Below are positions 28,619 through 54,862 of a DNA stretch of 64,000 nt, piece by piece. The translations under genes and the position numbers were made by a program. Position 1 is the stretch's first letter, and every line of letters starts with the position of its first letter. Below the pieces are notes generated by a model, which worked only from the letters and a program-made list of their open reading frames with translations, did no database searches and was not told where the DNA came from. The DNA comes from Pseudomonadota bacterium (GTDB lineage: Bacteria > Pseudomonadota > Gammaproteobacteria > Acidiferrobacterales > UBA6901), in contig JAJYEX010000002.1 in NCBI GenBank assembly GCA_021785515.1, positions 281,328-345,327 on the forward strand. The letters are read 5' to 3'.

Positions 28619-28634
28619 CCCTGGGGTGATGCCC

Positions 28635-29702
28635 TCAGATACCGGCCGACGCCGATCCTAGTTCGAGCGGATAGGGCATTTCAAGGAGCGTCAGTCTCGG
28701 GCCAGAAGGGCTGTCGAGATGCAATTCCCCATTGCGGATGCTGCTGATCTGAACTACCGCGAGCAGATCGAAGCCGCCCTCGAGGCCTGACTGGGAATCC
28801 ACGACCGTTCCCGCCGATTGTTCCACAAAATCGGGCGCATAGACCGGTGCTCCCGGTTGCGGACGTATCTCGGTCTGGACCCGTGCGCGGACCATACGCT
28901 GCTTGAGCCGACCCAGATAATGCATGCGGGCCACGATCTCCTGCCCGGGATAGCAGCCTTTGTTGAAACTGATTCCCCCGACGAGATCGAGATTCGCCAT
29001 CTGCGGGACAAACTGCTCCACGGTGCCGGGCAATACCGTCGGCGTGGCGGCCGCCAGGTCGAGCCACGACCAGGATGACGCGCCAACCGGTAAAAGCCGC
29101 GCACGCAGTTGAGTCCACAACCGCATCATCGCAGTCGCCTGGCCGATGAGTTCAAAACGAGGCACGGGTCCGGCAAACCTCAGGACCGTGATTTGCGCAT
29201 GCGTCACGCAGGCGTTGGCCAGGTCAGGAACTGACAGCCCTACTGCCGACAGGATGTCTGCCGTATCCGGCCCGGCGACGCCGATACGTACCCATTGGGT
29301 CCCGACATCCTCAAGTGTTACTTTGGCCCGCAGCACGAACATGCGCAGGCGTTTAAGTGTCGGCTCCATCAGGTCGGCGGGCAGCTGCAAGAAATAGCTG
29401 TCGTCGCGTATGAATATCCGGAAAATAGCCAGCATGCGCCCCTGTGGGCTGCAGTACGCGGCGATCTCGCCGGACGTGGCACTGACCAGTCGGATATCGT
29501 TACTGAGCTGGCCCTGCAGAAAGCTGCCGGCATCCTCACCGGTAGCCCGGATCAGGGACAGGTGTGACAGGTCTGTCACGACATTGCCGGTGGCAACGCG
29601 GTGGCGTTCCAATTGCGAGTCCCCAAAGTGGCTGACTTCGCCATCGGCCAGCACGCCGCCAGCCGTCTTCAAAAATTCCAGCCATTCCTGGTTCATTTGC
29701 AT
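28635..29702 (-). CDS. ygfZ: tRNA-modifying/iron-sulfur maturation protein YgfZ (GcvT-like folate-binding)
   Basis: Folate-dependent protein supporting Fe-S enzyme maturation and tRNA thiomethylation in E. coli. The family signature KGCYPGQEIVARMHYLGRLK is present. ~355 aa from ATG 29702 (MQMNQEWLEFLKTAGG); E. coli 326. ATG 29696 and an upstream in-frame ATG at 29789 are alternatives, but the extra residues look unrelated. Last gene of the core block before the EPS region. Confidence 0.9.
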   Translation of the reverse strand: MQMNQEWLEFLKTAGGVLADGEVSHFGDSQLERHRVATGNVVTDLSHLSLIRATGEDAGSFLQGQLSNDIRLVSATSGEIAAYCSPQGRMLAIFRIFIRDDSYFLQLPADLMEPTLKRLRMFVLRAKVTLEDVGTQWVRIGVAGPDTADILSAVGLSVPDLANACVTHAQITVLRFAGPVPRFELIGQATAMMRLWTQLRARLLPVGASSWSWLDLAAATPTVLPGTVEQFVPQMANLDLVGGISFNKGCYPGQEIVARMHYLGRLKQRMVRARVQTEIRPQPGAPVYAPDFVEQSAGTVVDSQSGLEGGFDLLAVVQISSIRNGELHLDSPSGPRLTLLEMPYPLELGSASAGI

Positions 29703-38008: not shown

Positions 38009-39286
38009 CTAAACACCTGACACTGCACGGCAATAGACTTCTTCCATTCGCCGCGCGTACTCATCCGCGTTGTATTTGGCGAGTACTTTGTGCTGTCCGG
38101 ATTTTCCCATCTTGTCGCGTAACTGCTTGTCTTGCAGCAAAGTGCGGATGGATTCGGCCAATGCGGGGGTATCCGTCGGATCAACGATAAACCCGTCCTT
38201 GCCGTCGTCAATGATTTCCCGTGGAGCACCAAGATTGGATGCTACCACCGGAATTCCACAGACCATGGCTTCCGTTATCACCAGGCCGAACGGCTCCGGA
38301 CGGGTTGACGCGTGAACCACTACGTCCATGATGGCATAGAGTTCGGCGACCTTGGTTATGTAGCCGGTAAAGACAAACCGACTTTCCAGTCCCTGTTCCC
38401 GTACGAGATCATGCAGACAGTCCCACAGTTTTTCGTCGCCATCTGACACATCCCCGACCACGAACGCAATGGCCTCAGGCATACTTCTTAGTACCTCGCT
38501 TGCTGCCAGGATAAATTCGCGATGGCCTTTCCATCCCACAATGCGTCCGAATATTCCGAATACGCGGTGTTCTGGTTTTAGATCATAACGGGCTCTGACT
38601 GACTGCGCCACGATAGGATCGACGCTCATATTCTCGACAGGATTTGGGATGACCGTGATCATCTGTTCCGGAACGCCGCTTTTTATTAGATCGGACTTGA
38701 TATGAGTCGATACTGCCACAAATTCATCAGCCCTGCGCGCTAGGAAACGTTCCAGGAATCCAAAGTGACCGGATCCATGGGCGTGAACAATGATGCGACG
38801 TCTCAGTGCCCAGGCCACTAGACCCGCCCGCGTATTGTCGAGTACGTTGTTCAGATGAATGATGTCCGGTTTTTCACGAACAACGCATTTTCCGAGCCGC
38901 CATACGTACACTGAATTAATCGCCGCTGAAACCAGAGACACGGCGTACATGGCTGGACGCATGATCAGACTGGACATAGGCATCCGGCGCAGCCATCGGG
39001 TTATCCGGGCGTGGTCGGCATAGCTCATTGGATGCTTAATAACCTCAACGTCTCCCCAATCGCCAAAGTGGTTCTCTAGAATCGAGACGTCCATTTCGCT
39101 AACCACGTGACTCTCGACTTTCGCCGGATCAAGTGCGCGCACCAGACGCGCAGCCACAACGATGGAGCCACCAAATGAGGTTGCCTGATCAACAATCAAA
39201 ACGCGGATTTTCCGTCCGTGCACTTTACTCTCTCCTGTAACCGCAATTGCATGGCCGCTCATCGCCGATGCGGCCGATTTAATCAA
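38009..39286 (-). CDS. Glycosyltransferase family 4 protein, paralogue of the 56.1-kb gene
   Basis: 425 aa. N-domain RKIRVLIVDQATSFGGSIVV; C-domain VFGIFGRIVGWKGHREFILA and PFGLVITEAMVCGIPVVASN with the GT4 Glu pair. It matches the plus-strand gene at 56081-57337 over its whole length (RVLI.DQA..FGGSIVVAARLVRALDP, FGDW, IFGRIVGWKGHREF), so the two are paralogues in mirrored positions. Start is ATG 39286 or ATG 39262. The IS630 element lies only 8 nt upstream of ATG 39286 and probably displaced its promoter. Confidence 0.85.
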   Translation of the reverse strand: MIKSAASAMSGHAIAVTGESKVHGRKIRVLIVDQATSFGGSIVVAARLVRALDPAKVESHVVSEMDVSILENHFGDWGDVEVIKHPMSYADHARITRWLRRMPMSSLIMRPAMYAVSLVSAAINSVYVWRLGKCVVREKPDIIHLNNVLDNTRAGLVAWALRRRIIVHAHGSGHFGFLERFLARRADEFVAVSTHIKSDLIKSGVPEQMITVIPNPVENMSVDPIVAQSVRARYDLKPEHRVFGIFGRIVGWKGHREFILAASEVLRSMPEAIAFVVGDVSDGDEKLWDCLHDLVREQGLESRFVFTGYITKVAELYAIMDVVVHASTRPEPFGLVITEAMVCGIPVVASNLGAPREIIDDGKDGFIVDPTDTPALAESIRTLLQDKQLRDKMGKSGQHKVLAKYNADEYARRMEEVYCRAVSGV

Positions 39287-39294
39287 TACTACTA

Positions 39295-40455
39295 GTGTAG
39301 TGCTTCATAATTAAATGAACTAATATGGTCCTCTCTTGTCTCAGTGATAGAGTACAAAACAGGAGACCATCGATGCGCGCCGCCGCCCCCATCACGTTGA
39401 CCGACGAGGAACGGACCAAGCTCACGCAGCTGGCAAGATCGCGCACAGCCAGTGTGCGGCTTGCTGTGCGCGCGCAGATAATCCTGCGCGCGGCGAAGGG
39501 AGAGTCCAACGAGGCGATCGCAGAAACACTCGGTGTCGGGCGTGTGCAGGTCGGGCGCTGGCGGCAGCGGTATGCACAAGGCGGTCTGGCGGCGATTGCG
39601 AAGGATCGCCCTCGAGGCGGACGGCCGGTACGAGTAGATAGTGCCCGCATCGTGCACCTCACCACCCAGACCAACCCCGAGGGGGCCACGCACTGGAGCA
39701 CCCGGACGCTGGCCGCGAAGGTGGGGGTAAGTGACACCACGGTGCTGCGTATCTGGCGTGCCCACGGACTGAAACCCCATCTGGTCAGATCCTTCAAGGT
39801 CTCGCGCGACCCCGCCTTCGTCGAGAAGCTCGAAGATATCGTCGGGTTGTATCTCAACCCTCCAGAGCACGCGCTGGTGCTCTGTTGTGACGAGAAGGGC
39901 CAGGTGCAGGCGCTCGATCGGACCCAGCCGGGGCTGCCCCTCAAAAATGGCCGGGCAGGCACGATGACCCATGATTATAAGCGTCACGGCACCACCACCC
40001 TCTTTGCGGCCTTGAGCATGCTGGACGGTCAGGTCATCGGTCAATGCCAGAAGCGTCACCGCCACACCGAGTGGCTGGCGTTCCTGCGCCAGATCGACCA
40101 CGAAACCCCAAAAGACAGAGACCTTCATCTTGTCTGTGACAACTATGCCACCCATAAGCATCCCAAGGTGCGGGCCTGGCTTGCCAGACATCCGCGCTTT
40201 CATATGCACTTCACGCCGACCTCGGCGTCCTGGCTTAACAGGGTCGAGCGCTTCTTCCGCGATATCACCACCGAACGGCTGCGTCGCGGCGTCTTTCGCA
40301 GCGTGCCGGAATTGACCACCGCCATCAAAGAGTACATCACCGTACATAACGAGAATCCGAAGCCTTTCATCTGGACGGCCAAGGCCGGGGACATCCTTGA
40401 GAAGGTGATCCGGGCCAATCGGCGCTTAAGTTCCAGACAGAATGAAGCACTACAC
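39295..40455 (+). mobile_element. IS630-family insertion sequence, complete (1161 bp)
   Basis: Terminal inverted repeats GTGTAGTGCTTCAT (left end) and ATGAAGCACTACAC (right end) are perfect over 14 bp. The element is flanked by TA at 39293-39294 and 40456-40457, the TA target duplication of the IS630/Tc1/mariner superfamily. It sits between the 38-kb glycosyltransferase and the sugar-transferase remnant at 40.9 kb, splitting the old minus-strand operon. Confidence 0.93.
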
Positions 40456-40458
40456 TAG
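39373..40458 (+). CDS. IS630-family transposase
   Basis: DDE transposase with N-terminal helix-turn-helix (NEAIAETLGVGRVQVGRWRQR) and catalytic residues in VLCCDEKGQ, VCDNYATHKH and WLNRVERFFRD. ATG 39373 is chosen because GGAGA lies 7 nt upstream and the protein begins MRAAAPITLTDEERTK; an in-frame extension to 39325 is less likely. The stop codon TAG (40456-40458) is completed by the duplicated TA and the first flanking base. 361 aa, seemingly intact. Confidence 0.92.
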   Translation: MRAAAPITLTDEERTKLTQLARSRTASVRLAVRAQIILRAAKGESNEAIAETLGVGRVQVGRWRQRYAQGGLAAIAKDRPRGGRPVRVDSARIVHLTTQTNPEGATHWSTRTLAAKVGVSDTTVLRIWRAHGLKPHLVRSFKVSRDPAFVEKLEDIVGLYLNPPEHALVLCCDEKGQVQALDRTQPGLPLKNGRAGTMTHDYKRHGTTTLFAALSMLDGQVIGQCQKRHRHTEWLAFLRQIDHETPKDRDLHLVCDNYATHKHPKVRAWLARHPRFHMHFTPTSASWLNRVERFFRDITTERLRRGVFRSVPELTTAIKEYITVHNENPKPFIWTAKAGDILEKVIRANRRLSSRQNEALH

Positions 40459-40873
40459 TCACTAGTGTCTGACCATATAAAGTATTGGGACTTGTTCAAG
40501 CCGGAAACGTCTGATACTTACGGATGTGCAACTCCAGGATTGAAACCGGCGCCATCTCGATAATCGACAAAACCTGCGGTCTCCCGGCCTACGGTATTCT
40601 CGTCGTACTTATTTACCATACGTAATTGCCGGCGGGACGGTGCTCATGCGTACTGCAACCATGCGCCACGTTATGATCCGTGGGGCGCTGCGTGCCACAA
40701 GCGTGCCGCCAGGGTACGCTACCGCATGCAAAGCCGCGCTTCGCACCGAACCAACCGTTCTAACGCTGTCGCGCAGCCAGTGTGGAGTCCCGATCCAATG
40801 CGCCTCAGCGCAGCGCCATCGCCTTGCGGCCGTCCGCAACCCGGCGCGGACGCGGGCATACCACCGAATTCAG
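40456..40873. other. Gap between IS630 and the sugar-transferase remnant, no gene
   Basis: About 420 nt without a supportable gene; short frames on both strands show no family resemblance. Confidence 0.5.
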
Positions 40874-41360
40874 CTACTTCGAACCCTTCTCGAAAAGAGT
40901 AACCTGCGCCGTCTGCAACAGGGTAGCCAGGTCCAGAAATAGACTGCGATTCTGCATGTAGTATAAGGTCATACAGCAACTTTTCTATTACTTCCCGATG
41001 CAGATGCACCGTATGAGCAGCGTATCTGGGCCCAGCCCGTGATCCCAGGTTTCACGTTGTGACGGCACATGAAGAAGGGAATCTGCTGCGACAGCTGTTC
41101 GACGAAATACGGCCTTTCCGGTCGTGGTCCGACGAAACTCATTTCCCCTTTGAGGACATTGAATATCTGCGGCAGTTCGTCGATGCGCAGCTTGCGGATC
41201 ATGCGGCCCACCCGCGTGACACGGTCATCGCGCTGGCTCGCCCACCTCGGCTTGCCGTCCTGTTCCGCATCAACACGCATGCTGCGAAACTTGAGCACAT
41301 CGAACGGAACATTGCCCAGGCCAACCCGCTGCTGCCGGTAGAGGATAGGCCCCGGACTGT
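40874..41360 (-). pseudogene. 3' remnant of an undecaprenyl-phosphate sugar transferase (epsB/wcaJ-like)
   Basis: The 5' part (41360-41001 on minus) encodes LKFRSMRVDAEQDGKPRWAS to GWAQIRCSYGAS, identical base for base to part of the intact gene at 52342-53742. The remaining 127 nt are homologous but diverged: after a frameshift they read NRSLFLDLATLLQTAQVTLF and end at TAG 40874-40876, against NHSLFLDLVVLFQTVQVILF in the intact gene. Upstream of 41360 similarity stops. So this is a broken paralogue whose central part was overwritten by, or copied from, the intact gene. Confidence 0.88.
41001..41360 (-). repeat. 360-bp inverted repeat, copy 1 (in the sugar-transferase remnant)
   Basis: Reverse complement of 53258-53617. 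I compared the full length by eye and saw no difference. Flanking sequence is either diverged (left) or unrelated (right). Confidence 0.93.
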
Positions 41361-41987
41361 TACGGCGTTGTGTGCAGACCGACTATTGCCTATTTTGCAA
41401 GCTCGGTACGGCTTTCCCTTCCCGCAGCGAAAACCAGCGTACAGGCAGCCAACATCGGTAACTATATGGTCATGCCTAGTCTACAATCACTTATAATTTT
41501 ACATGAGTCTGCGTTTGGCGCAAAAGTACTGGATGGTAGGTGCGACCCAGTAACCCATTGTTGTGCCTCGTAATTCCTTTCATCAAGGTGCGCGACGGCC
41601 GACTATGTTCCGTTGTGCTGCCGAAGTGATCCAAATGGTTTCGGACCCGGACATTTAGCAATGTACGGTAGGGCGCTGTGTGGCTACACGGGCGCAGTGT
41701 TCACCCTCCGCACCGGATTTCGGCGCCAGGATGGGGCGCAATTTAGATTGCAAAATGCCCGGACGGTGCTCCTGAACGCCGCCCATCTTTACCGCACGTA
41801 TGTGCGCCGGCCCTCGATAAACGCGACGGGACGTCCAAGTCTCCCTCGCGCACTCGGTCTCGGCGCACTCTTTGTGCCTGCGCATGCGCTTCGGCACTGC
41901 CGCGGCCGCCCTGCTGCGGCGAGCGGCACGCATTTCCGATGCGCGCCAAAGCGCTCGCCTGCACAATGGCTGGACGGCGTTTCAGTT

Positions 41988-42049
41988 GTCCTTGCAGGTG
42001 GCCTTTGGCCACCCGCCCGGACCCTACGCCTCCCGCGGACTACGCGCCC
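41988..42049 (+). repeat. Degenerate intergenic repeat, copy 1
   Basis: Begins GTCCTTG and ends with TACGCC.CCGCGGACTACGCGCCC, as does the segment at 62946-63010. The last 16 bases (CGCGGACTACGCGCCC) are identical in both; the middle differs but is similarly C/G-rich. Includes the GGTGGCC/GGCCACC hairpin. Confidence 0.45.
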
Positions 42050-42532
42050 TCGCTTCGCTTTCCATGGCGCGCAGCGGTTGAGGTGTCCTTGCCTGTTCGA
42101 ACGTGCAGACTATCGTCTTGGATAGCCTATTCCGAGACAGCGCGTAGGATCGGCGTATTAGGAATAGCATCATTTAGAATCAACGGTTTGGGATATGAGC
42201 AAGCCTGCTTTAATGCCGTTTGAACCGGCAGTGATTTAATATTCTGCGACACAGGAAGATCATCGTTTTCGCGGACGCGCGGAATTCGAGAATAGGGTAT
42301 TGATGCAATCCTAACAAGCACGACCGTTGTGCTGGCTTGCAGGCGCAACGATGTGCGTGTTTGGTGATGGGCAACATGAACGGCGAAGTGGAACAGTTTC
42401 TTTCGAATTTCGGGGGTGGGACTGCCACGCAGTATTGTGCATTCAGAGGTTATTGTAATGACATCCGGCGCACACTTCGGTTCTTCGTGTAAGGGTTATC
42501 GCTTCGACGGGACCGAACTGGCAGACCATTTT

Positions 42533-42535
42533 GTC
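42533..42535. repeat. Target-site duplication GTC (left) of the IS3-family element
   Basis: GTC is repeated right of the element at 47117-47119; 3-4 bp duplications are typical of IS3. Confidence 0.75.
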
Positions 42536-42598
42536 TGACCCTGCCCCAGTTTCACGTACATCAGATTCTTGGTATTTTTCTGATGAACGGAGGAATGA

Positions 42599-42883
42599 AT
42601 GGGCAGGAAAGAGAATGTACCGAACCGGCAGTACACGCTGGAATTCAAGGTTGAGGCGGTGCGGTTGGCCGAGTCCATTGGCGGCAACCAGGCGGCCAAG
42701 CGCCTGGGAATCCCGGATTCCAGCATCTGGAACTGGATCCGGCTGAGCCGCGCGGGCAAGCTCAAAGCAGCGGATCCTTCGGCGGTGCCGATCCGGCGCG
42801 CCCCCACCGAACTGGAAGCCGAGAATGCTCGGCTGCGACGGGAATTGGCGGACGCGAAGCTGGATGTCGAAGTACTAAAAAAA
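42599..42883 (+). pseudogene. IS3 OrfA, interrupted at its 3' end
   Basis: 95 codons of OrfA with the DNA-binding helix-turn-helix (FKVEAVRLAESIGGNQAAKRLGI, PDSSIWNWIRLS) and the leucine-zipper-like ELEAENARLRRELADAKLDVEVLKK. Good ribosome binding site AACGGAGG upstream of ATG 42599. The host sequence stops at the A7 run 42877-42883, where IS3 elements have the -1 frameshift site. The frame then reads by chance into the inserted element to 42931. Confidence 0.9.
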
Positions 42884-42898
42884 TGTATGGTCCGCCCC

Positions 42899-43146
42899 CC
42901 ATTGGCAAGCGTCCGTTCGAAGATGAGATAAACCCGTTCGCACCAATGTATCCGGCCTCTCGATGGAGGCTTCCGCCTCCGGGCCCTGATGGGAATCCGC
43001 GCAGAGTCGTCCTAAAAAGCGACCCGGACTCGACTTCGGTCCACTTTTTCTCTCAGGTTCTCGACCCTGCCGCTAAACGGTTATCGCCATCGCCTCTTGA
43101 ACGCTCGCAAACGCAGGTAAGTCGTAATCTCTTTGACGCCTTGGTG
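42899..43146 (-). ncRNA. Candidate guide (bridge/seek) RNA region of the IS1111-group element
   Basis: IS110-family elements encode a structured guide RNA in one non-coding end; in the IS1111 group it lies downstream of the transposase gene. Here the long non-coding end is that one (248 nt between the transposase stop and the sub-terminal repeat). It contains hairpin-forming stretches, e.g. GGAGGCttcCGCCTCC at 42966-42979 within a larger palindromic segment. No secondary-structure model was calculated; the assignment rests on position. Confidence 0.45.
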
Positions 43147-43637
43147 TCAGGCTGCTGCGGCGCACTCCACCCCGGCGGCTGGTCTGGCCTCATAGGGGAC
43201 GCTTTTCGTCAGCACGGCCCAGGCGATGCGCGCGTTCTTGTTCGCCAGCGCACAGGCTACGACATTGGAATGCGCGCGATTGCCTAACGCCACTACCCAC
43301 CCGCCCAGGGCATCGGTGCGCCCCGTGCTGTGGGAGAGCACTGCCCGCGCCCCGTGGATCAAGAGCATGCGCACGTAGCTGTTGCCGCGCTTGGAGATCC
43401 CGAGGAGCTTAGGCTTCCCCCCGGTCGAGTATTGCCGGGGCACGAGCCCGAGGAAGGCGGCAAGCTCCCTACCTGAGCGGAAGGCCTTGCCATCGCCTAT
43501 CGCTGCGATCATGGCGCTCGCCGTGAGTGGCCCGATGCCTGGGATCGTCATGAGGCGCTTGCAGGCGGGATCGTTGCGCGCCTCGCGCTCAATTTCGCCA
43601 CTCAGGCGGTCGATGTGCACATCGACCGCTGCAAGCG
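43147..43637 (-). pseudogene. IS110/IS1111 transposase, C-terminal exon-like part
   Basis: C-terminal Transposase_20 part: CKRLMTIPGIGPLTASAMIA, SGRELAAFLGLVPRQYSTGG, KRGNSYVRMLLIHGARA. Joined to 45535-46096 it restores one 350-aa frame (..ELREDR|PLAAVDVHIDRLSGE..), which fixes the intron boundaries. The intervening intron lies in antisense to this gene, so it cannot be spliced from the transposase mRNA and the gene is dead. Confidence 0.9.
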
Positions 43638-45534
43638 GTGTGCCGAGCATGCTCGACAGCTCGGGGGTGAAAGTCCCCTTCACAACCTGATGGAGGTGAA
43701 GTGATAGCGAAGCGCAAGGGCGTCGCCGCGAGGCGGGGTCTGAAAGAAGCGCGGAGCAAACGTACGAGCCGATGTACAAGAACCGGATGTGAGGCATCGG
43801 TGCCGGGCGAGCGGGCCACTGACCGCGAAGCCCATATCCATCAAGGGCACTGGGTGTAGATTCGGCGGTTGCGTACGGAAGGCGGTCGAGCTTGACCATC
43901 GGGAGATCTGCCGTCGGTCTGGGATACCCTGGACTTAAGGATCGAGTGATCGGTCCTGACCGGGCGGCAGAAGTCAGTAGCGGGCATAGTAGCCGGGTCT
44001 CCGGCGAAGGCCCAAACGGTCCTCGGCGCAGCCGAGGGTAATGGGAGCGGCGAGTAAGCGGTGCGACTCATGGGCGACAAGCGGCAGAAGAACCAGTCTC
44101 AACTGGCCTTCGCGGGAGGGACTGAGGGTGAAGCCCGCAAGTCCTTCTCGGAAGGGACCGAATCGCCCACGGCGAAACACGCAGCAGAAAGCCCGGTCAT
44201 TGGTGAACAGTTGATGGAGGAAGTCTGCGGGCGGGAAAACCTAAAGCAGGCGTTGGCAAGAGTCAAGGCCAATAAAGGAAGCGCTGGCGTGGATGGGATG
44301 ACCGTCCAGCAGTTGCCCGAGTTTCTTAAGGCAACACTGGCCAGCCCTCCGGGAACAGCTGTTGGGTGGAACCTATAGGCCGCAACCGGTGAGGCGGGTG
44401 CAAATCCCCAAGCCAGACGGTGGGAAGCGCAATCTCGGCATCCCGACGGTGCTGGATCGATTCATCCAGCAGGCGGTGATGCAGGTTCTGCAGGGCAGAT
44501 GGGACCGGACGTTCTCCGAGTCGAGTTATGGGTTTCGGCCCGGCCGGGCGAGCAATCAGGCGGTGGCAAAGGTACGGCAACACATCGGCCGAAGGCTACC
44601 GTTGGGTGGTGGATCTCGATCTGGAGAAATTCTTCGACCGGGTCCACCACGACCGGCTGATGGTGAGAATCGCGCAAAGGATCGGTGACAAGCGATTGCT
44701 GAAACTGATCCGGGCGTTTCTGCAAGCCGCAGTGATGGAGAACGGGCTGGTGAGTCCGGTGGATGAGGGCACGCCGCAAGGCGGTCCTCTGTCCCCGTTG
44801 CTCAGCAATATCGTGCTCGTGTGAGTTCGATCGGGAGTTGGAGCATCGTGGACTTCGGTTCGTACGGCTCACGCGGATGACGGTAACATCTATGTCCGCA
44901 GCCGTCGGGCCGGAGAACGCGTGATGGCGAGCGTGACGCAATTCATCACGCTGAAGCTCAGGCTCAAGGTGAACCAGACAAAGAGCGCGGTAGCGCGGCC
45001 ATGGGAACGGAAGTTTCTGGGCTTTAGCTTCTCCTCGCATCGCAAGCCGCGCTGGCGCATTGCGCCCCAGGCGCTGGTCCGATTCAAGGAACGAGTCCGG
45101 GAACTGACGCGTCGGACACGGGCAGTGAGCATCGAGCGAATGGCAAAGGACCTGACCCGGTATCTGCGGGGCTGGATCGGCTATTTCGGTAAGTGCGAAA
45201 CGCCCGGGGTGTTGCGAGGCCTTGAGGAATGGATCCGGCACAGACTCCGGTCTGTCATCTGGACGCAGTGGAAGCGGGGGAAGGTGCGTTATGCTGAGCT
45301 GCGCACACGGGGCGTGCGCGTGGAGCTTGGCCCGCAAAAACGGCGGGCAGCGCCCACGGCCCATGGCGGCTGGCGCAAAGCCCGGCCCTCACCATCGCAC
45401 TGCCCAATGCCTACTTCGACTCGCTCGGGATTCCGCGATTGGCTTCACGCCGATGATTCAACCCGCCGAACCGCCCGGTACGTGACCCGTATGCCGGGTG
45501 GTGTGACAGGGAAAGCGGGCGACTGCCTACCTAT
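43638..45534 (+). mobile_element. Group II intron (1897 bp) inserted antisense in the IS1111-type transposase gene
   Basis: The 5' end GTGTGCCGAGCATG is the group II consensus GUGYG type; the 3' end is ...CTACCTAT. Domain V is visible near 45468-45512 (CGGTACGTGACCCGTATGCCG core followed by a GGTGGTGTGA pattern), and a reverse-transcriptase frame fills domain IV. Excision restores the transposase reading frame exactly. Intron strand is plus, transposase strand minus. The encoded RT is broken, so mobility would need a helper in trans. Confidence 0.92.
44070..45456 (+). pseudogene. ltrA: Group II intron reverse transcriptase/maturase, multiply frameshifted
   Basis: RT motifs are spread over several frames: [20 protein letters not shown], then [20 protein letters not shown] and [15 protein letters not shown], then [19 protein letters not shown] and EGTPQGGPLSPLLSNIVL, then maturase X-domain LGFSFSSHRKPRWRIAP and TRYLRGWIGYFGKCETP, ending TIALPNAYFDSLGIPRL. 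Frame breaks lie near 44330, 44592, 44822-44868 and 45378. The catalytic YADD box is now preceded by a 2-nt insertion and reads HADD. Not functional as it stands. Confidence 0.9.
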
Positions 45535-46096
45535 GTCGATCTTCGCGCAGCTCACAGAGCAGCGTGCGCATGCGGTCGGTAAGCCCGTTCTCGGCATCCT
45601 CAAGCAGCCCGGGCAGCGCACCGCGGATCTGCCCAACCCCCCGGGCGACGGGCAGGCCGTACTCTAGCAGGAACGCCCGGATCTGGTTGATGAGCATCGT
45701 GCGGTTTGCGATGAGCCCGTGGCGCACCCGGTGCAGCGCCTGGAGATCCTGCTGATCTGGGGTCTTGATCGGCACAAAGCGCATGGTAGGGCGCGTCACC
45801 GCCTCGGCAATGGCCTCGGCGTCGAGGAAGTCCGACTTGTTGCCCTTCACGTAGGGCTTGACGAACTGTGCGGCCATGAGGCGCACGGTATGGCCGGCTT
45901 CCGCAAAGCGCCGTGCCAGGTGCTGGGAGCCCGGACAGGATTCCATGCCGATGAGACAGGCGGGAAGATTGGCGATGAAACGCATGAGCTTCTCGCGGGT
46001 GAGCTTCTGCTTCAACGCAGGATGTCCACGCCCATCGAGCCCTACGAGATGAAAGGTGGATTTGCCGATGTCGATGCCCAGTGTTGTAATGTCCAT
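45535..46096 (-). pseudogene. IS110/IS1111 transposase, N-terminal part (DEDD RuvC-like)
   Basis: Starts MDITTLGIDIGKSTFHLVGL (ATG 46096) with the first catalytic Asp, then GMESCPGSQHLARRFAEAGH and NKSDFLDAEAIAEAV carrying the other acidic residues. The frame is cut after CELREDR by the antisense group II intron and continues at 43637. With the C-terminal part it totals 350 aa, the family length. Confidence 0.9.
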
Positions 46097-46190
46097 GGAT
46101 GGTTTGCCTCCTTCGGTTGGGTGGGTACATTGAAGCCCCACCAGTATGGCCCCCTCGAGGCCGAAAGAAGAGGGGCGGACCATCCCATTA

Positions 46191-47086
46191 GCGGCGGCGT
46201 TCTTCGCGAGGGGGTCGCGGTGAAGTACGCCTGGATCGACGAGCATCGCGACCGGTTTGCCGTCACCCGGATGTGCCGGCTGTTGACGGTTTCGCGCACA
46301 GGATATTGCCAGTGGCGAGAACGGGCACCGAGCTCGCGGACCATCGCCAACTCGGTTCTGGACGTGCAGGTGGCCGCGATCCACGCGGGCAGCCGCCGCA
46401 GCTATGGGCGCAATCGGATTCTTCGGGCCTTGCGTCAGCAGGGAACAACGCCGGGCCATGAGCGGGTACGCCGCAGTCTGCTGCGCCAGAAGCTTCGCCC
46501 GGTGTACCGGCGGCCGTACCGCGTGACGACCGATTCGAATCACACCAAGTCGATTGCCCCCAACCTCCTGGATCGACGGTTTTCTGGCTGGCCGGTGAAC
46601 CGTGCCTGGGTGGGTGATATCATGTATATCGCCACCGCCGAAGGCTGGCTGTACCTGGCCGTCATCACGGACCTTGCCAGCCGCCGTATCGTTGGCTGGT
46701 CGATGAGCGAGCGGATCAAAGCCGATCTCGTCTGCCAGGCGCTCAAATCGGCGTACTGGCGGCGCAAACCCGGCGCCGGTTTGATCATGCACACCGACCG
46801 CGGGAGCCAGTACGCCAGCCACAGCTACCGGCAGTTGATCAAAGACTACTACCGCCTGATTCAATCGATGAGCCGGAGGGCCAACTGCCGGGATAACGCG
46901 GCGATGGAGAGCTTCTTCAAGACGCTGAAGGTCGAGCGCGTGAATCAGGTTCGGTACGAAACCCGGGCGCAGGCACGCATCGATCTGGTCGATTGGATCG
47001 AAGGCTTCTACAATTCGCAATGCCTGCATTCGGCGATCGATTACCAGGCACCGAACCAGTTGGAAAAGCAGTGCAACGCTGTATAG
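46191..47086 (+). pseudogene. IS3 OrfB (DDE integrase domain), separated from OrfA
   Basis: Begins GGVLREGVAVKYAWIDEHRD in the -1 frame relative to OrfA, then the rve integrase core with NRAWVGDIMYIATAEG (Asp), MHTDRGSQYAS (Asp) and DNAAMESFFKTLKVE (Glu), ending TAG 47084-47086. The catalytic domain is undamaged, but the frameshift window joining it to OrfA has been destroyed by the inserted element. A GTG at 46219 could start a lone OrfB. Confidence 0.88.
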
Positions 47087-47116
47087 CCTGGTGTACGTCA
47101 AATCGAGGCAGGGTCA

Positions 47117-47675
47117 GTCAGTCGTAGAGATAGCGGCAAACTGCTTGCCGGTATGTTTTGTGTTTTCAGGCTATGCGGGAACCGGTTACGGTTGGAAAAT
47201 CAGGATATCTTTTGGTTATGCCCGCAATTCATAATAAACTGGCAGGCGTTTGACTTTCTGGTTCAGCCGTCATGAAACACAGTGGGTCCGACTAACGCCG
47301 CATCTGTATATTTAAGGGTACGGTACTCATGTGGGCCATCGCAGGAAGTTTGCGATTAGGCGATTGGTCGAGTCGAAGATCAAGCGTCATCGTAACGTAC
47401 GTTCGAGGATGACTGGGCCTCGGCTGGGCAAGACAGCGTGCTCAGCTGCTACATGAGAACCTGACGTTGTTCGATAGCTACCGGGTGCGATGGGCTGCGC
47501 CGGAAGCATGCCTGGCATGATGGGCCTCATAAGGCCTGGTGCGACACATACAGGAAACGGCTTGCGAAATCCCCCCGCTCCGTTTGAGGTAGCGGGGCTG
47601 GAGACACGGCGTGGCTGAGATAAGGCGTCACGTTTAAGGGTGCGCCGATGGTGACGCAATCCCGGGGCAAGAATC
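47117..47675. other. 560-nt spacer upstream of the Wzy-like gene; hairpin and GGTAGC motif
   Basis: No gene. A 7-bp stem CCCCGCT (47573-47579) / AGCGGGG (47591-47597) overlaps the string AGGTAGCGGGG at 47587-47597, which recurs at 57368-57378. The promoter of the 47676 gene is presumably here; none is obvious. Confidence 0.5.
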
Positions 47676-49031
47676 ATGGCGAACATTCAAACTGACCTGA
47701 CCGACTCCAGCGGTACTGATAACCCCGGTGCGCGGGAGTTTTACGCCGTCAGGATGGGAAAAATTTGGGCCGCGGTGAAACGTGAGCCCTTGTCGTTCTG
47801 GGCCATCAACCTGTACTTGCTGCTAGAGTACGTCCGGCCGCAATCGTCCTACCCAGCGTTCGACATTCTTCCGTGGGATAAGGTCGCGCTCATTATTGCG
47901 CTCGTCTCGTACTTGAGCGAACCGCGTGTCGCCACGGTCAGAAATGGCGCAGACAAACTGATGATCCTTTTTCTTTTCGCTGTTCTCTCATCTTCGGTGT
48001 TGGCGACACATCCGTCCATCGCATACGCTCATTTGATGAGCGGCTTTATAGATTGGCTGGTAATTTATTTTCTTATAACGCGGATTGTCGTGTCGGAAAG
48101 ACGGTTCTTCATATTTTTTCTCGCCTTTCTTGTTTACAATTTCAAGATGTCCCTGCACGGATTCCGAAGCTGGGCAGAAAGGGATTTTGCCTGGGAGAGC
48201 TGGGGTGTAACCGGGGCCCCGGGCTTCTTCCAGAATTCCGGCGAGTTCGGGATTGAACTCTGCATCTTCCTCCCGTTGTCCTATTACTTTATCGCCGCGT
48301 TGTGGCCATACTGGGGAAAGATAAAGCGTCTGTTCTTTCTGCTGTTCCCGTTAACGGCTATCGGATCGATTCTCGCCACGTCGTCACGAGGTGCGGTGCT
48401 TGGCAGCGGCGCGGCCGTCTTATTCATAGTGATGCAGAGCCGCCGTTACCGCGTCCGGGCGCTCCTGGTTGCTGCAGGAGTCCTGGCCATTTCCTACGTT
48501 GTTATCCCGCCTCAATTCATGGCACGTTTTGGCCGCTCCGGCACCGACAAGACTTCCATTGAGCGGCTTGTACGCTGGAAAGACGGCATAAGCATGTACG
48601 AAAAGCATCCGTATTTCGGCATCGGATATTTTAATTGGGACCGGTACTATGAAGACCATTACTCCACTATTAGGGGTGGGTTCGGTCTCCCCCACAATAT
48701 TTTCATACAAGCGGGCGCCGAACTGGGCACGTTCGGGCTTGCCGCGTTCATCATGCTGATCATCGGGGCGTTCGTAAACAACTACAAGGTTCGCAAGCTT
48801 GTGTCAAAGTCGGAAAACCCATTCTTGTACAGTACCGCACAAGGGCTCGATGCGGCGATGATCGGACTGCTCGTGAGCGGGTCGTTTATTACAGTGCTTT
48901 ATTATCCCTACTTCTGGATAGACCTGTCCTTTGTCGTTGCATTGCGGGCAGTGGCGGAACACGCCGCGCGGAACAAAGCAGTTGCCTCCGATGTGTCGGG
49001 CGAATTTATCGCGCATCCGCCGTCGGTTTGA
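47676..49031 (+). CDS. O-antigen ligase / Wzy-type polymerase family membrane protein
   Basis: 451 aa with about ten to twelve hydrophobic helices and the Wzy_C-type signature region LATSSRGAVLGSGAAVLFIV, followed by a periplasmic loop with WKDGISMYEKHPYFGIGYFN and GFGLPHNIFIQAGAELGTFG (the HN motif of O-antigen ligases and polymerases). Predicted inner-membrane enzyme that polymerises or transfers lipid-linked repeat units on the periplasmic side. It is the only such gene in the window, so it is the likely polymerase for the EPS made by the flanking genes. It sits isolated between two mobile elements. Confidence 0.82.
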   Translation: MANIQTDLTDSSGTDNPGAREFYAVRMGKIWAAVKREPLSFWAINLYLLLEYVRPQSSYPAFDILPWDKVALIIALVSYLSEPRVATVRNGADKLMILFLFAVLSSSVLATHPSIAYAHLMSGFIDWLVIYFLITRIVVSERRFFIFFLAFLVYNFKMSLHGFRSWAERDFAWESWGVTGAPGFFQNSGEFGIELCIFLPLSYYFIAALWPYWGKIKRLFFLLFPLTAIGSILATSSRGAVLGSGAAVLFIVMQSRRYRVRALLVAAGVLAISYVVIPPQFMARFGRSGTDKTSIERLVRWKDGISMYEKHPYFGIGYFNWDRYYEDHYSTIRGGFGLPHNIFIQAGAELGTFGLAAFIMLIIGAFVNNYKVRKLVSKSENPFLYSTAQGLDAAMIGLLVSGSFITVLYYPYFWIDLSFVVALRAVAEHAARNKAVASDVSGEFIAHPPSV

Positions 49032-49399
49032 AGGGACCTTCGCGAATCTTCATCGAGTAGCTTGGCGTACTTAATCCTTGGCGGAAATCAGTACGGCGTG
49101 TTGGCCGTGACCTCTGCACCTTGGCCTGCACGGCATACCGGTACTGGTCACAGTCATGACCCGCAGATCGCCAGCAGGCGAGCAGGACCCTGTGCCTGAT
49201 CACCGATGTGGCGGCGGCCTGACGCCGCTTCGCGCGGCACTTAAAAAAATGCGGGTTGCCCTATGTCTCCGACGGCGTACGGGTCCGTGCCGCACTCGTC
49301 TTGGCGCGCAGCGTCAGATTTATGCTGGGCTAGAATGCGATCAAGTATGATTAGGCGCAGACAGACCGGGTGCATAATAACCACATGTTAGGTATTATG
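49032..49399. other. 370-nt spacer between the Wzy-like gene and IS1634, nothing recognised
   Basis: No supportable gene or clear terminator. A purine/pyrimidine-skewed AT-rich stretch precedes the target-site duplication at 49400. Confidence 0.5.
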
Positions 49400-49405
49400 T
49401 TTAGT
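49400..49405. repeat. Target-site duplication TTTAGT (left) of the IS1634-family element
   Basis: The same hexamer follows the right end at 51335-51340; 5-6 bp duplications fit the family. Confidence 0.85.
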
Positions 49406-51334
49406 CTGAAGTTGCCTCCCTAACCCCCCAAAAAAGCCCCCCTAACGCTCAGGAAATCAAGCGCTTGGGCATTTTCTGATCTGTGGGAATGTAGGCATGT
49501 AATGCTTGTTATCATGCTTTATATTGTATGTTAGTTGTGGTATGTAGTAGGCATGCATATCCATATCGTGCCCAATCGTGGCTCGCGCCCCACCATCCTG
49601 TTGCGGGAATCCTACCGCGAGGGGAAATCGGTGAAGAAGCGCACAATCGCCAATCTCTCGCATCTGCCGATGCGCCAGATCGAACTCCTGCGCGCGGTCT
49701 TTCAGGGCGCGGATCTGCAACCGGCAGGTCTGGGGTTCGTGGTGGAGCGCTCGCAAGCCCAGGGGCATGTGGAGGCAGTGCGCAGGATGATGGCGCGCCT
49801 GGGCCTGCCTGCGCTGATCGCCGGTAGGCCGTGCCGGGAGCGGGACCTGGTGCTCGCCATGATCGCCTCCCGCATCCTCGACCCCCAGACCAAGCTCGCC
49901 ATGACCCGCTCCTGGCAGGCCACCACGCTTGCGGAGACCTTCGGGGTGACCGAGGCCGATGAGCAGGACTGCTATGCCGCCATGGACTGGCTCCTTGCGC
50001 GCCAGGACCGCATCGAGAGGAAGTTGGCGACCCGCCACCTCAAGGCCGATGGGCTCGTGCTCTATGATCTTTCTTCCAGTTACTTTGAAGGCGCGACCTG
50101 TCCTCTAGCCCAGAGGGGCTACTCGCGCGATGGTAAGCGCGGGACCTTGCAGGTGAACTACGGGCTTCTGACCGACGACCGGGGCTGCCCGGTGGCGGTC
50201 ACCGTGCATGAGGGCAACACCGCCGACCCCACGACCCTCCTGCCCGAGATCGAGCGCATCAAGGACAACTTCGGCATCGCGCAGTTCGTGATGGTCGGCG
50301 ACCTCGGCATGATCAGCGCTGCCGCGATCGCCGATCTGCGGGAGCAGGGCGCCATCGGCTGGATCACGGCCTTGAAGAGCCCCTCGATCCGTGCCTTGGT
50401 CGAGGACAAATCTCTGCAACCCGATCTCTTCGATGAGAAGAACCTCTGCGAGATCACCCACCCCGACTATCCGGGAGAGCGGCTCATCGCCTGCCGTAAC
50501 CCCGAGCTTGCCAAGCTTAGGCGCCATAAGCGCGAGGAGCTCTTGCAGGCGACCGAAGACGGTCTCATCCAGATCGCTACCCGTATCGCCGCTGGACGTC
50601 TTGCGGGGCAGGACAAGATCGGCTTGGCGGTCGGCCGTGTGATCAACCGCTACAAGATGGCCAAGCACTTTACCCTCACCATCACCGACACGACCCTGGT
50701 CTTTGCCCGCAAGATCGAGGCCATCTGCCTCGAGGCGGCGCTCGATGGGATCTACATCATCCGCACCTCGGTCACAGCGGACCGCCTGGACAGCGCGAGC
50801 TGCGTGCGCCACTACAAGTCCTTGTCCCAGGTCGAGCGGGCGTTTCGCTCGATGAAGACGGTCGATCTCAAGGTCCGCCCGATCCACCACCGTTTGAGCG
50901 ATCGGGTGCGCGCCCACATCTTTCTCTGCATGCTCGCCTACCATGTCGAGTGGCATCTGAAGGAGGCCTGGCGCCCACTGCTCTTCGCCGATGAGGATCA
51001 AGCCGCCAAGGCCATTCGTGATCCGGTCGCCCCGGCCGAGCGCTCGGTGGGCGCCAAAGCCAAGGTCGCCCGTCGGCACCACGGGGACGGCACACCCATC
51101 CACAGCTTCCCGACACTTCTTGCGCAGCTCGCCACGATCGTGCGCAACACCTGCCGCACGTCCGCTGAAGCGGATGCGCCGACCTTCTCCGTGACGACGC
51201 AATCCAATCCGCTGCAAAGGCGCGCCCTGGATCTCATCGACACCCTTACCGTGTAGGCAGGGCGCGGAACAACGCTCCTCTCACAACGCCTTGAGAGGCC
51301 GAAGGAAAACATGTTTCGTTCGGGGCAACTTGAG
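49406..51334 (+). mobile_element. IS1634-family insertion sequence, complete (1929 bp)
   Basis: Ends CTGAAGTTGCCTCCC (left) and, in reverse complement, CTCAAGTTGCCCCGA (right) form short imperfect inverted repeats. The exact hexamer TTTAGT flanks both. One long transposase gene on plus. Removing the element leaves an ordinary non-coding junction, so no gene was hit. Confidence 0.88.
49553..51256 (+). CDS. IS1634-family transposase
   Basis: Large DDE transposase (567 aa from ATG 49553, MHIHIVPNRGSRPTIL; an in-frame ATG 49535 would add six residues). Catalytic Asp in LVLYDLSSSYFEG, Asp in FVMVGDLGMISA and Glu in SLSQVERAFRSMKTVDL; the long insertion before the Glu is typical of IS4/IS1634 relatives. 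Reading frame intact, so the element may be active. Confidence 0.92.
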   Translation: MHIHIVPNRGSRPTILLRESYREGKSVKKRTIANLSHLPMRQIELLRAVFQGADLQPAGLGFVVERSQAQGHVEAVRRMMARLGLPALIAGRPCRERDLVLAMIASRILDPQTKLAMTRSWQATTLAETFGVTEADEQDCYAAMDWLLARQDRIERKLATRHLKADGLVLYDLSSSYFEGATCPLAQRGYSRDGKRGTLQVNYGLLTDDRGCPVAVTVHEGNTADPTTLLPEIERIKDNFGIAQFVMVGDLGMISAAAIADLREQGAIGWITALKSPSIRALVEDKSLQPDLFDEKNLCEITHPDYPGERLIACRNPELAKLRRHKREELLQATEDGLIQIATRIAAGRLAGQDKIGLAVGRVINRYKMAKHFTLTITDTTLVFARKIEAICLEAALDGIYIIRTSVTADRLDSASCVRHYKSLSQVERAFRSMKTVDLKVRPIHHRLSDRVRAHIFLCMLAYHVEWHLKEAWRPLLFADEDQAAKAIRDPVAPAERSVGAKAKVARRHHGDGTPIHSFPTLLAQLATIVRNTCRTSAEADAPTFSVTTQSNPLQRRALDLIDTLTV

Positions 51335-51340
51335 TTTAGT
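51335..51340. repeat. Target-site duplication TTTAGT (right) of the IS1634-family element
   Basis: Copy of 49400-49405, fixing the element's right end at 51334. Confidence 0.85.
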
Positions 51341-52341
51341 CTCATTGCCGGTTCGAACTGCGTTCAAACAGCTTTACCCGTTTTACAAACAATTGATTTT
51401 CAATGGTATTATTCCTGATCCGCCGATCCTGCTGTCTGCCACAGAATAGGCTGTCGGCGGATGACGAGTATCTTCGAACAGATAAGGACCGTCACAACTG
51501 CTGCAAAAATGGGCATTTTGGAACCTTTTAACTTTTCTGGTGCCTATGACGCAGCCGACGACACCCCCAGGGCCCAGATGAATTTCTCGAGACTGGCTCT
51601 GGACAAGGTTGATTTAGGCTAATGTTAAAATGAATAGTGTCCGGACGTTTACTAAAACGACGTCCGTTGGCTAGCGGAGAACGCTTGAATGGCATTCGTG
51701 ATGAGGGGGCGGTTAAGCGATTAATCTGATGGAATCTGTCTCAACATGGATAGGGGCTGAGTCTATCGCATTTCATGCAGGTGTTCGCTGGGCGCGGAGA
51801 TGGGCGATGCGTGGAGCCCTCGAAGCTTAAACGCAGGGTTCTAAACGAACAGCCGAGGCTCATGGGGGTGGATGTGTAGGCAAAATGAATGCACTTAAGG
51901 ACTCGGGTGCGCGAGGGCGGCTTGGAGGTCGCGTCGTGTGTCCGTGAGGGGCGGTGCACATGCGGTTTGCTGGCTGTAACTCCGCTCGCGTTCCGGTGCA
52001 GGTGGCTTGGGCATTTGCCCGATCCAGCGCCGTATCCGGAGGGCACAAAAATGAAACGGCAATCAATTCAAAACCTCGGGGACACAGAGCGCTGGGATCG
52101 TAATAGCGATTGATTGGGTAGCAGTGACCGGTATAACAACGGGTAAGGTGTACATTTAATTAACAACCATTGCGCTGGCCAGCGCAGGTTTGTCTGGTTT
52201 GGAGAGCAGGGTAGCCGCCGTCCGATGCCCATGCCTGCGCGGCAGAGGGATGGCAAGCGACTATTAAAAAAAGAGAAAACGGGGCCCCGTATTGCAGCGG
52301 TTTCGCTGTCACGCAGTATTGGGCGTCTAGGGGTGTGCTGC
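51341..52341. other. 1-kb gene-free region upstream of the main EPS operon
   Basis: No supportable gene; the open frame at 51889-52113 has no family resemblance. Probably holds the promoter and leader of the sugar-transferase gene. An inverted repeat GGACGT/ACGTCC with an 11-nt loop lies near 51642-51664. I searched for a sigma54 -24/-12 pair and found none with correct spacing. Confidence 0.5.
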
Positions 52342-53742
52342 ATGATCCGAATTTTCAAGCATTACATGCCGGCGTCGCTGCTGGTTCTCGGGGTTGTGGA
52401 GACTGCCATACTGTTCCTGTCGATGTACGCCGGGGCCGCGATCCGGTTTTGGGGGCAGTTTCCGGCAGCAATCCACTTCGGTCTGGTGTTTCCGATTTAC
52501 CCCAAGGCGATCGTGTTCGCAGCGGTGATGCTCGGGATCATGATCGGGACGGGTCTCTACCAGCGCGAACATCAGCCGCAATCCTGGCATTACGGGCGGC
52601 TGGGAGTCAGCTTCTTTGCCGGACTGGCTGCTATGGCCTTGATTTTCTATGCGGTGCCGCAGCTGTTTCTTGGCCGTGGGGCGTTCAGTATTGCCTATAT
52701 CGTTGCTTTTGGGGGTATCGCCCTTGCCCGCCTAGCCTATTTTAATCTGACCAGCGATGGTGCCAGCAAGCGGCGTGTGCTCGTGCTCGGAACGGGAACG
52801 CGGGCGGCTAAGATCGACGCTCTGGAGAAGTCGGCGAACGGGCGGCATGGATTTCATGTTGTCGGGTACCTGGCGCTTCAGGTCGGGCATCACTTTGTGC
52901 CGAAGGACAAAATCCTTGAGGAGGACATGCCGCTGTGCACCATTGCACAGAAATACGAGATCGATGAGATCGTGGTCGGTGTGCGCGACCGCAGGGGCGG
53001 GGGGTTGCCGATAAATGATGTCCTGGCGTGCAAGCTCAACGGCATCGACATCATAGACCTGCCATCCTTTTTTGAGCGCGAGACCGGGTACGTGCAGCTC
53101 CAGTCGATGAATCCCAGCTGGCTCATATTCTCTGACGGTTTCGATAGTGGTCCACTTCGCGACGCTAGCAAGCGGCTGTTCGACGTGGTCGCGAGCGTGG
53201 CGCTGCTCGTGGTCGCGCTGCCGGTAATGCTCATCACTGCCTTTCTCGTCAAACTCGACAGTCCGGGGCCTATCCTCTACCGGCAGCAGCGGGTTGGCCT
53301 GGGCAATGTTCCGTTCGATGTGCTCAAGTTTCGCAGCATGCGTGTTGATGCGGAACAGGACGGCAAGCCGAGGTGGGCGAGCCAGCGCGATGACCGTGTC
53401 ACGCGGGTGGGCCGCATGATCCGCAAGCTGCGCATCGACGAACTGCCGCAGATATTCAATGTCCTCAAAGGGGAAATGAGTTTCGTCGGACCACGACCGG
53501 AAAGGCCGTATTTCGTCGAACAGCTGTCGCAGCAGATTCCCTTCTTCATGTGCCGTCACAACGTGAAACCTGGGATCACGGGCTGGGCCCAGATACGCTG
53601 CTCATACGGTGCATCTGTGGAAGAGGCAATCGAGAAACTGCAGTATGATCTCTACTATGTCAAGAACCACAGCCTGTTCCTCGATTTGGTCGTGCTTTTT
53701 CAGACCGTACAGGTGATTCTTTTCGGCAAGGGATCACGATAG
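52342..53742 (+). CDS. Undecaprenyl-phosphate sugar phosphotransferase, EpsB/WcaJ type
   Basis: Initiates EPS repeat-unit synthesis by moving sugar-1-phosphate from a UDP-sugar to undecaprenyl phosphate. 466 aa: four or five N-terminal membrane helices, a CoA-binding-like Rossmann part (RRVLVLGTGTRAAKIDAL), then a membrane helix and the bacterial sugar transferase domain (FDVLKFRSMRVDAEQDG, KLRIDELPQIFNVLKGEMSF, GPRPERPYFVEQL, KPGITGWAQI). It resembles the exosortase-A-associated EpsB subgroup. ATG 52342 with AGGGG upstream. Bases 53258-53617 are shared with the remnant at 41 kb. Confidence 0.92.
   Translation: MIRIFKHYMPASLLVLGVVETAILFLSMYAGAAIRFWGQFPAAIHFGLVFPIYPKAIVFAAVMLGIMIGTGLYQREHQPQSWHYGRLGVSFFAGLAAMALIFYAVPQLFLGRGAFSIAYIVAFGGIALARLAYFNLTSDGASKRRVLVLGTGTRAAKIDALEKSANGRHGFHVVGYLALQVGHHFVPKDKILEEDMPLCTIAQKYEIDEIVVGVRDRRGGGLPINDVLACKLNGIDIIDLPSFFERETGYVQLQSMNPSWLIFSDGFDSGPLRDASKRLFDVVASVALLVVALPVMLITAFLVKLDSPGPILYRQQRVGLGNVPFDVLKFRSMRVDAEQDGKPRWASQRDDRVTRVGRMIRKLRIDELPQIFNVLKGEMSFVGPRPERPYFVEQLSQQIPFFMCRHNVKPGITGWAQIRCSYGASVEEAIEKLQYDLYYVKNHSLFLDLVVLFQTVQVILFGKGSR
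53258..53617 (+). repeat. 360-bp inverted repeat, copy 2 (inside the intact sugar-transferase gene)
   Basis: Same sequence as the reverse complement of 41001-41360, covering the central sugar-transferase domain coding region. The two copies face each other across 11.9 kb. Confidence 0.93.
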
Positions 53743-53835
53743 CAGCGTTGCAGGTGGAGTGCAGAAGCAGCCGCGCGTGACGGCGTGCCTGCGCGATGTT
53801 GTGGGTGTTTTTCAGTGCGAAGCGTGGCTTTGCAT

Positions 53836-53846
53836 GCGGTAGCGTG
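53836..53846 (+). promoter_or_regulatory. ops-like element GCGGTAGCGTG in the EPS operon leader
   Basis: Matches 11 of 11 bases of the core of the ops/JUMPstart element (GGCGGTAGCGTG; only the first G differs). ops pauses RNA polymerase and loads the anti-terminator RfaH in long polysaccharide operons. It lies 57 nt before the ATG of the deacetylase gene, on the operon strand. No rfaH gene is in the window, so function is inferred. Confidence 0.5.
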
Positions 53847-53902: not shown

Positions 53903-54862
53903 ATGAACAACCAACAGGCTAATGTGATTGACAGCTCGCGCCACCGAAGTACATCTGCGACTTCGGAGGCCAGCGAGGCCGTGATTACGAATGCGATGAC
54001 CGTGGACGTGGAGGATTACTTCCACGTCTCTGCCTTCGCCAAGGTCATAGATCCAGCACACTGGGACCGCTACAACTGGCGCGTGGAAGACAACACTCGT
54101 CGGCTGCTCCGTCTGCTGGCCCGCCACGATGTCCGGGCAACGTTTTTCGTTCTTGGCTGGGTCGCGCAGCGCTGCCCGGCGCTGGTGCGCGAAATTGCTG
54201 GTGCTGGACATGAGATTGCCTGTCACGGGTTGACGCACAGGCTTGTGTACGAACAGACGCCGCGCGAATTCCGTGAGGAAACGCAGACCGCCAAGATGCT
54301 GTTGGAGGACATTGTGCAGGTAGCGATCAACGGTTATCGTGCGGCCAGTTACTCCATTACCGCCAGGTCCCTGTGGGCCATCGATATCCTCGCCGAACTC
54401 GGCTTCCGGTACGATTCCAGCATATTTCCGATACGACATGACCGCTACGGCATTCCGGGCGCGTCACGCATGCCGTACTATGTGCAGGGTGCGCACGGAG
54501 CGCGGCTTCTGGAGTTTCCGCTCAGCACCAAGGATTTTGGGCCGGTGCGTTTACCCGTTGCGGGTGGCGGCTATTTCCGGCTGTTTCCGTATGTGGTAAC
54601 GCGCACCGCGCTTGCCAGCATCAATCGAAGAGAAAGGCTTCCGTTCATTTTTTACTTGCATCCCTGGGAAGTCGATCCCGGGCAGCCGCGGATCGCTGCG
54701 AGTCGCCTGTCCCGTTTCCGCCACTACACGAATTTGGCGAAATGTGAATGGCGGCTGGATCAACTGTTGGGCGAATTTCGTTTCGGGACGGTGTGTGACA
54801 GTCTTGCAGGACTGGGTCTGTGGCCCGCCGCCGATGTGCGGACTGTGTCTAGGTCAGCCTGA
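53903..54862 (+). CDS. Polysaccharide deacetylase, DUF3473 (XrtA-associated) type
   Basis: CE4-fold deacetylase predicted to remove acetyl groups from the EPS. TVDVEDYFHVSAFA at the start carries the catalytic Asp and metal Asp region; HEIACHGLTHRLVY supplies the His-His motif. The C-terminal DUF3473 part FYLHPWEVDPGQPR and FRHYTNLAKCEWRLDQLL is typical of the exosortase-A-associated subfamily. 319 aa; TAGGA ribosome binding site 5 nt before ATG 53903. Preceded by an ops-like element and followed at once by the FemAB-like gene. Confidence 0.9.
   Translation: MNNQQANVIDSSRHRSTSATSEASEAVITNAMTVDVEDYFHVSAFAKVIDPAHWDRYNWRVEDNTRRLLRLLARHDVRATFFVLGWVAQRCPALVREIAGAGHEIACHGLTHRLVYEQTPREFREETQTAKMLLEDIVQVAINGYRAASYSITARSLWAIDILAELGFRYDSSIFPIRHDRYGIPGASRMPYYVQGAHGARLLEFPLSTKDFGPVRLPVAGGGYFRLFPYVVTRTALASINRRERLPFIFYLHPWEVDPGQPRIAASRLSRFRHYTNLAKCEWRLDQLLGEFRFGTVCDSLAGLGLWPAADVRTVSRSA

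Follow-up and report, generated by a model that had tools for sequence, protein, structure and literature searches.

In a 64,000-nucleotide stretch of a Pseudomonadota genome (contig JAJYEX010000002.1 of assembly GCA_021785515.1; the whole stretch is hereafter called the window), two copies of an epsB-type sugar transferase gene share an identical patch of 360 bp, and we suggest that this patch quite likely reflects recent one-way copying of the intact gene, B, onto an older pseudogene, A, with the 3' end of the tract anchored in homologous sequence and the 5' end either lost later or joined non-homologously. A is the minus-strand remnant copy and B the plus-strand intact copy, with ~12 kb between them. 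The sequence pattern is real, the event behind it is probably real, and its kind is ordinary and already known. The source species is represented by one genome, a draft assembly of 22 contigs. The comparison genomes were G002, G003 and G024, of which G003 forms one genus with the source genome and G024 belongs to another family of the same order; R1 and R2 are two C-terminal epsB remnants of G024. Matches at contig ends of the genomes G022 and G016 were left out of the comparisons. Gene tails were compared in a four-sequence alignment (122 tail columns) and a seven-sequence alignment (125 tail columns), and R1 covers 271 columns of the patch part. The features at issue are:

52225-53742, plus strand: gene B, intact XrtA/PEP-CTERM EpsB_2 sugar transferase (TIGR03013), with orthologues in G002, G003 and G024
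53258-53617, plus strand: putative donor stretch, 360 bp in gene B, residues ~345-465, inside the Bac_transf domain
41001-41360, minus strand: putative recipient stretch, the patch in remnant A, identical to 53258-53617
40874-41000, minus strand: C-terminal tail of remnant A, diverged and frameshifted, with a stop codon; 64.0% identical to B and 74.4% to R1
41361-41796, no strand: the 436 bp that directly adjoin the patch at its 5' edge, unmatched in 56 other genomes of the order and in a plasmid collection

Aligned base by base, 41001-41360 (minus strand) and 53258-53617 (plus strand) are identical at 360/360 positions, as a sequence-only reading of this DNA had claimed, and a search of the whole assembly found the patch sequence at these two places only, a third copy being absent. 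That reading had also described the adjoining 40874-41000 as homologous yet diverged and frameshifted, and this holds: compared with 53618-53742, 80/125 columns are identical (64.0%) in the seven-sequence alignment and 77/122 in the four-sequence alignment, and A carries two 1-base insertions relative to B, located where the patch ends and in CTTATAC, which break the frame. All 47 differences among the 487 A/B columns lie beyond column 360 (probability under shuffling of columns ~10^-30.7); the divergence is not uniform along the alignment, which had been named as one of two points on which the claim could fail. The switch from identity to divergence at the 3' edge is in register, at the matching codon and within 1 nt, and the longest stretch without variation among B, G003 and G002 (20 bp, 53581-53600) ends 17 bp inside this edge. 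An in-register switch so close to the longest invariant run suits homologous pairing. When the 3' junction was searched in viral contigs, 0 matches were returned from a collection that may omit near records.

The two tails bear unequal signatures of selection. At codon positions 1 and 2, differences from G003 number 11/240 in the patch, 4/79 in the B tail and 17/79 in the A tail; the patch differs from the A tail (p 2.3e-5) and the A tail from the B tail (p 0.004), whereas patch and B tail do not differ (p 0.77). Given the few changes at these positions in the patch and the many in the A tail, the A tail had probably already been freed from selection and had decayed when a patch resembling a working gene arrived, and the codon positions make copying from B to A the most likely direction. 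B itself, the putative unchanged donor of a non-reciprocal exchange, is fairly evenly similar to G003 along the gene (third-position identity of 55.0% in the N-terminal part, 59.2% in the patch and 56.1% in the tail) and less evenly similar to G002, in a species for which there is one genome. With 0/360 differences, the 95% upper bound on change since the event is ~0.8% by the rule of three; as a scale for this bound, the B and G003 tails differ at 45% of third positions (18/40). Of the earlier proposal of a recent conversion from the intact gene onto the remnant, or the reverse, the recent one-way copying fits the data, with a direction that can be argued from codon positions, whereas the two-sided edges do not.

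The identical tract also conflicts with the history of the adjoining homologous sequence. Among the 271 patch columns under R1, 18 join A with B only and A-B differences number 0, whereas in the tail no column joins A with B only, four join it with R1 only and one with R2 only; 21 tail columns are private to A. In the seven-sequence alignment the A tail is most similar to R1 (74.4%), followed by R2, G002, G003 and G024 (62.9-72.0%) together with B (64.0%). The A tail and R1 share a 1-nt insertion and three substitutions that are absent from B, G003, G002 and G024, and of these features the insertion hints most strongly at a common descent of A and R1. Separate trees for patch and flank, which the sequence-only reading had proposed as a check, were built: in the patch tree A equals B by identity, and the tail tree does not settle the placement of A, since a tree that unites the four intact genes to the exclusion of A is not rejected (p-AU 0.27).

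Other observations weigh against the copying of B onto an older A by homologous pairing: (i) past 41361 the next 300 bases of A align to B, G003 and G002 with local scores no better than those of shuffled sequence, i.e. gene homology stops; (ii) the third-position identity of B to G002 is uneven (N-terminal part 52.1%, patch 55.8%, tail 41.5%), and at third positions the A tail is no farther from G003 (14/40 differences) than the B tail (18/40), so that direction is not readable from plain distance; (iii) B and A are equally identical to R1 (93/125 each), and in a tree of the 122 tail columns the group of A and R1 has weak support (54/74), a group of A and B is not rejected (p-AU 0.251) and the paths from A to R1 and to G024 have equal lengths (0.44 each), the tail being short; and (iv) the mobile-element stretches of the window, i.e. 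IS630 (next copy 75% identical), IS1634 (no other copy) and the nested elements at 42400-47300 (short pieces of at most 76% and a 24-bp match to itself), each occur once at high identity and thus give no sign either way on whether long reads built the assembly. The third-position counts would be in keeping with A as the source and B as the recipient. We regard this reverse direction as extremely unlikely, since the patch is without the excess of position 1 and 2 changes seen in the A tail (11/240 versus 17/79) and resembles the B tail (4/79).

The sharp edges inside old paralogues described by the earlier reading are borne out at the 3' edge and fail at the 5' edge. The island has one conversion-type edge, inside the paralogous gene at its 3' side, and at the 5' edge (41360/41361) gene homology ends. 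Homology on both sides, which marks classical ectopic gene conversion and is expected of a plain conversion, is found on one side only and may have been lost later on the other, and we therefore call the event conversion-like. The missing N-terminal part of A was looked for in the 300 bp past this edge, where a 22-residue tblastx match upstream of the G003 gene was rejected because the alignment did not bear it out. The source of the 436 bp at 41361-41796 was unmatched in the 56 other genomes of the order that were searched and in a plasmid collection. Similarity to the B side resumes farther out in two short blocks, 41797-41885, which is part of a dispersed repeat, and 42121-42234:

42121-42234, minus strand: block upstream of A, 83/114 positions identical (73%) to 51342-51455 on the plus strand
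51342-51455, plus strand: homologue of 42121-42234 (minus strand) on the upstream side of B, located 86 bp past the frame of the IS1634 transposase

The latter pair was unmatched in the stretches of G002, G003 and G024 that were tried. Because a block farther upstream of both loci also matches (83/114), A, which is now a C-terminal remnant missing the first two thirds of the gene, may once have been longer. Both R1 and R2 are 5'-truncated and exist without any identical patch, so that truncation of A before or after the event is feasible.

An edge without homology, several mobile elements close by and a 6-bp tandem TGCATC at the 3' join would all be in keeping with a plain insertion or partial duplication, in which illegitimate recombination or a mobile element set a 360-bp piece of B beside the A tail without pairing. 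We consider this improbable, as the 3' switch falls, to within 1 nt, on the corresponding codon of the same gene, which is unlikely without pairing. Likewise, the patches are inverted repeats ~12 kb apart, as would be left by an inversion through crossover between inverted copies; a crossover swaps flanks and does not itself erase differences, and if it were undone, the functional N-terminal half of B would be joined to the frameshifted tail of A, which makes an inversion hardly credible.

An assembly artefact, in which the B stretch was placed into locus A or the 5' side of A, the patch and the tail were misjoined, is unlikely. A 360-bp exact inverted repeat exceeds the length of many short reads, the assembly is a draft of 22 contigs, and the 5' flank of A is unmatched in the relatives that could check its layout. 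The wiring of B agrees with orthologues of the same gene order, a backing that the 5' wiring of A does not have; the tail of A and the element downstream of it are homologues rather than B sequence; and the tail begins in register with the end of the patch, which is not expected of a random misjoin.

Returning to one-way copying from B to A, we suggest the following course of events: (i) arm A of the cluster would be the older one, with its epsB reduced to a frameshifted C-terminal remnant, (ii) a stretch of the intact epsB would then have been copied one way onto this remnant, with its 3' end at the matching codon within 1 nt, (iii) RecA-type strand invasion may have been involved, with the conserved block ending 17 bp inside the edge as the likely anchor, (iv) the trigger may have been a break in the A remnant that was under repair, or a fragment containing B that the cell had taken up, and (v) the 5' limit may reflect a converted tract that was once longer and was cut short by a later truncation of A, or else a join without homology made in the same event. 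The part of RecA, the break, the anchor, the timing and the order of these steps are what we infer from the pattern. For the cell the patch probably has no effect, since A lacks the first two thirds of epsB and is still frameshifted.

Both loci lie in what appears to be a pair of inverted arms of an XrtA-type exopolysaccharide cluster, with arm B intact and arm A an older, decaying second copy:

53903-54862, plus strand: XrtA-system polysaccharide deacetylase, next after B (TIGR03006, 394.3 bits versus a cut-off of 276.2)
56081-57337, plus strand: GT4 glycosyltransferase of the B arm, paralogue of 38009-39286
38009-39286, minus strand: GT4 glycosyltransferase of the A arm, 65% amino-acid identity to 56081-57337
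39325-40458, plus strand: IS630-family transposase in the A arm, where the B arm has the deacetylase and FemAB genes (NF033545, 277.7 bits versus a cut-off of 100)

The B arm reads epsB, XrtA deacetylase, FemAB-like gene, GT4 glycosyltransferase and flippase-type gene, in the same order as in G002, G003 and G024, and the inverted A arm reads epsB remnant, ops-like element, IS630 copy and GT4 gene. No further patch was seen in the GT4 pair, in which the longest identical run is 13 bp. Relative to G002, where the stretch matching 28285-29660 of the window sits 2 kb before B, the two lie ~22.5 kb apart in the window, and the A arm sits in this extra stretch. Gene B scores 549.5 bits against TIGR03013 (cut-off 393.35), and its Bac_transf domain covers residues 316-499. 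Its annotated start (52225-52341 region) is probably too early, an ATG at 52342 giving 466 amino acids as in the 466-amino-acid open reading frame of G024. The intact epsB of G024 (L070 1587-3029) and its counterpart in G003 (L010) are 93.7% identical across the 271 columns of the patch part, and G003 is 85.6% identical to B within one genus. The likeness of G024 and G003 makes it possible that the epsB cluster moved between families.

Downstream of both copies lies an ops/JUMPstart-like element:

40713-40753, minus strand: element downstream of remnant A, 34/39 positions identical to the B element
53813-53846, plus strand: element that follows gene B and precedes the deacetylase gene, sub-threshold match to RF01707

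The B element scores 15.9 bits against RF01707, below the gathering threshold of 35, and covers model positions 1-38 of 38. In an alignment of six copies including A and B, the element is conserved in G002, G003, G024 and R2; R1 is without it. The ops 12-mer is GGCGGTAGCGTG; the element ends in TGCGGTAGCGTG, matching 11/12 positions in B and G003, 12/12 in G002 and 10/12 in A and G024. An RfaH gene is present in the genome (TIGR01955, 169.5 bits versus a cut-off of 144.5), and the ops positions C3, G4, T6, A7 and G8 named in a published account agree with the element (PMC6391919). The same account places ops in the untranslated leader of an operon activated by RfaH, whereas the element here lies between epsB and the deacetylase gene and not at a known leader. 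These matches suggest RfaH control of the XrtA/PEP-CTERM cluster, a suggestion weakened by the finding that the 121-nt stretch around the element folds no better than shuffles (z 1.23) and by its absence from R1. A literature search pairing exosortase with RfaH returned no paper.

Between remnant A and its upstream block lies a structured repeat:

41797-42076, minus strand: structured interspersed repeat of 280 bp, multi-copy in the assembly and strongly folded

It has 26 matches in the assembly, 17 of at least 209 bp (its own included), at 69-100% identity, with sharp ends in the copies examined; it folds strongly on the minus strand (z -6.67) and matched no Rfam family. AANGA follows 5/9 copies on the plus side and is perhaps an insertion target. 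Farther upstream, 42599-47086 holds nested mobile elements, in which an IS3-family element (second frame tested) is apparently split by an IS110-like frame (judged by eye) and a group II intron.

In G024, one contig (G024:C162, L070) carries one intact epsB and, downstream of it, two C-terminal remnants:

L070 12630-13034 and 14669-15104: C-terminal epsB remnants of G024, downstream of the intact copy

R2 directly adjoins a copy of the 280-bp repeat, and after this remnant come an ops-like element and a deacetylase fragment. One G024 remnant shares its frameshift with A, and the other lies, like A, beside an ops-like element. On this basis, truncated C-terminal copies of epsB might be retained because the intact gene can recombine with them again and again, maybe tuning or repairing the initiating sugar transferase of the exopolysaccharide, which we regard as very doubtful.

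If the assembly is right, the window holds a natural case of a decayed pseudogene receiving working sequence, in which the likely anchor is visible at the base level and one homologous boundary is combined with one non-homologous boundary. Trees of transferase genes in draft genomes can be misled by such patches.

Silent-cassette systems such as pilS/pilE and vlsE resemble A in that they, too, hold an incomplete copy of an expressed gene, lacking the 5' part, which has recently exchanged sequence; they differ in that the intact gene is here apparently the donor and the silent copy the recipient, and the assembly holds one remnant rather than an array. A literature search on "intragenomic gene conversion" with bacteria and paralogs returned no paper. 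Intrachromosomal (ectopic) gene conversion between bacterial paralogues is known from tuf (PMC6053082) and, of the same kind, from rRNA operons (PMC8022953). As in those cases, part of a paralogue has been homogenised one way and the tract is at odds with its flank; unlike in them, there is one homologous flank, the patch was received by a truncated pseudogene and the paralogous GT4 pair close by is unpatched. Homology-facilitated illegitimate recombination has been described for incoming linear DNA (PMC3240628), whereas in this case the source corresponds to a gene of the genome itself. A likeness to that process may lie in a homologous switch at one end of the tract and a non-homologous join at the other, where the 5' junction of A could also be a later truncation.

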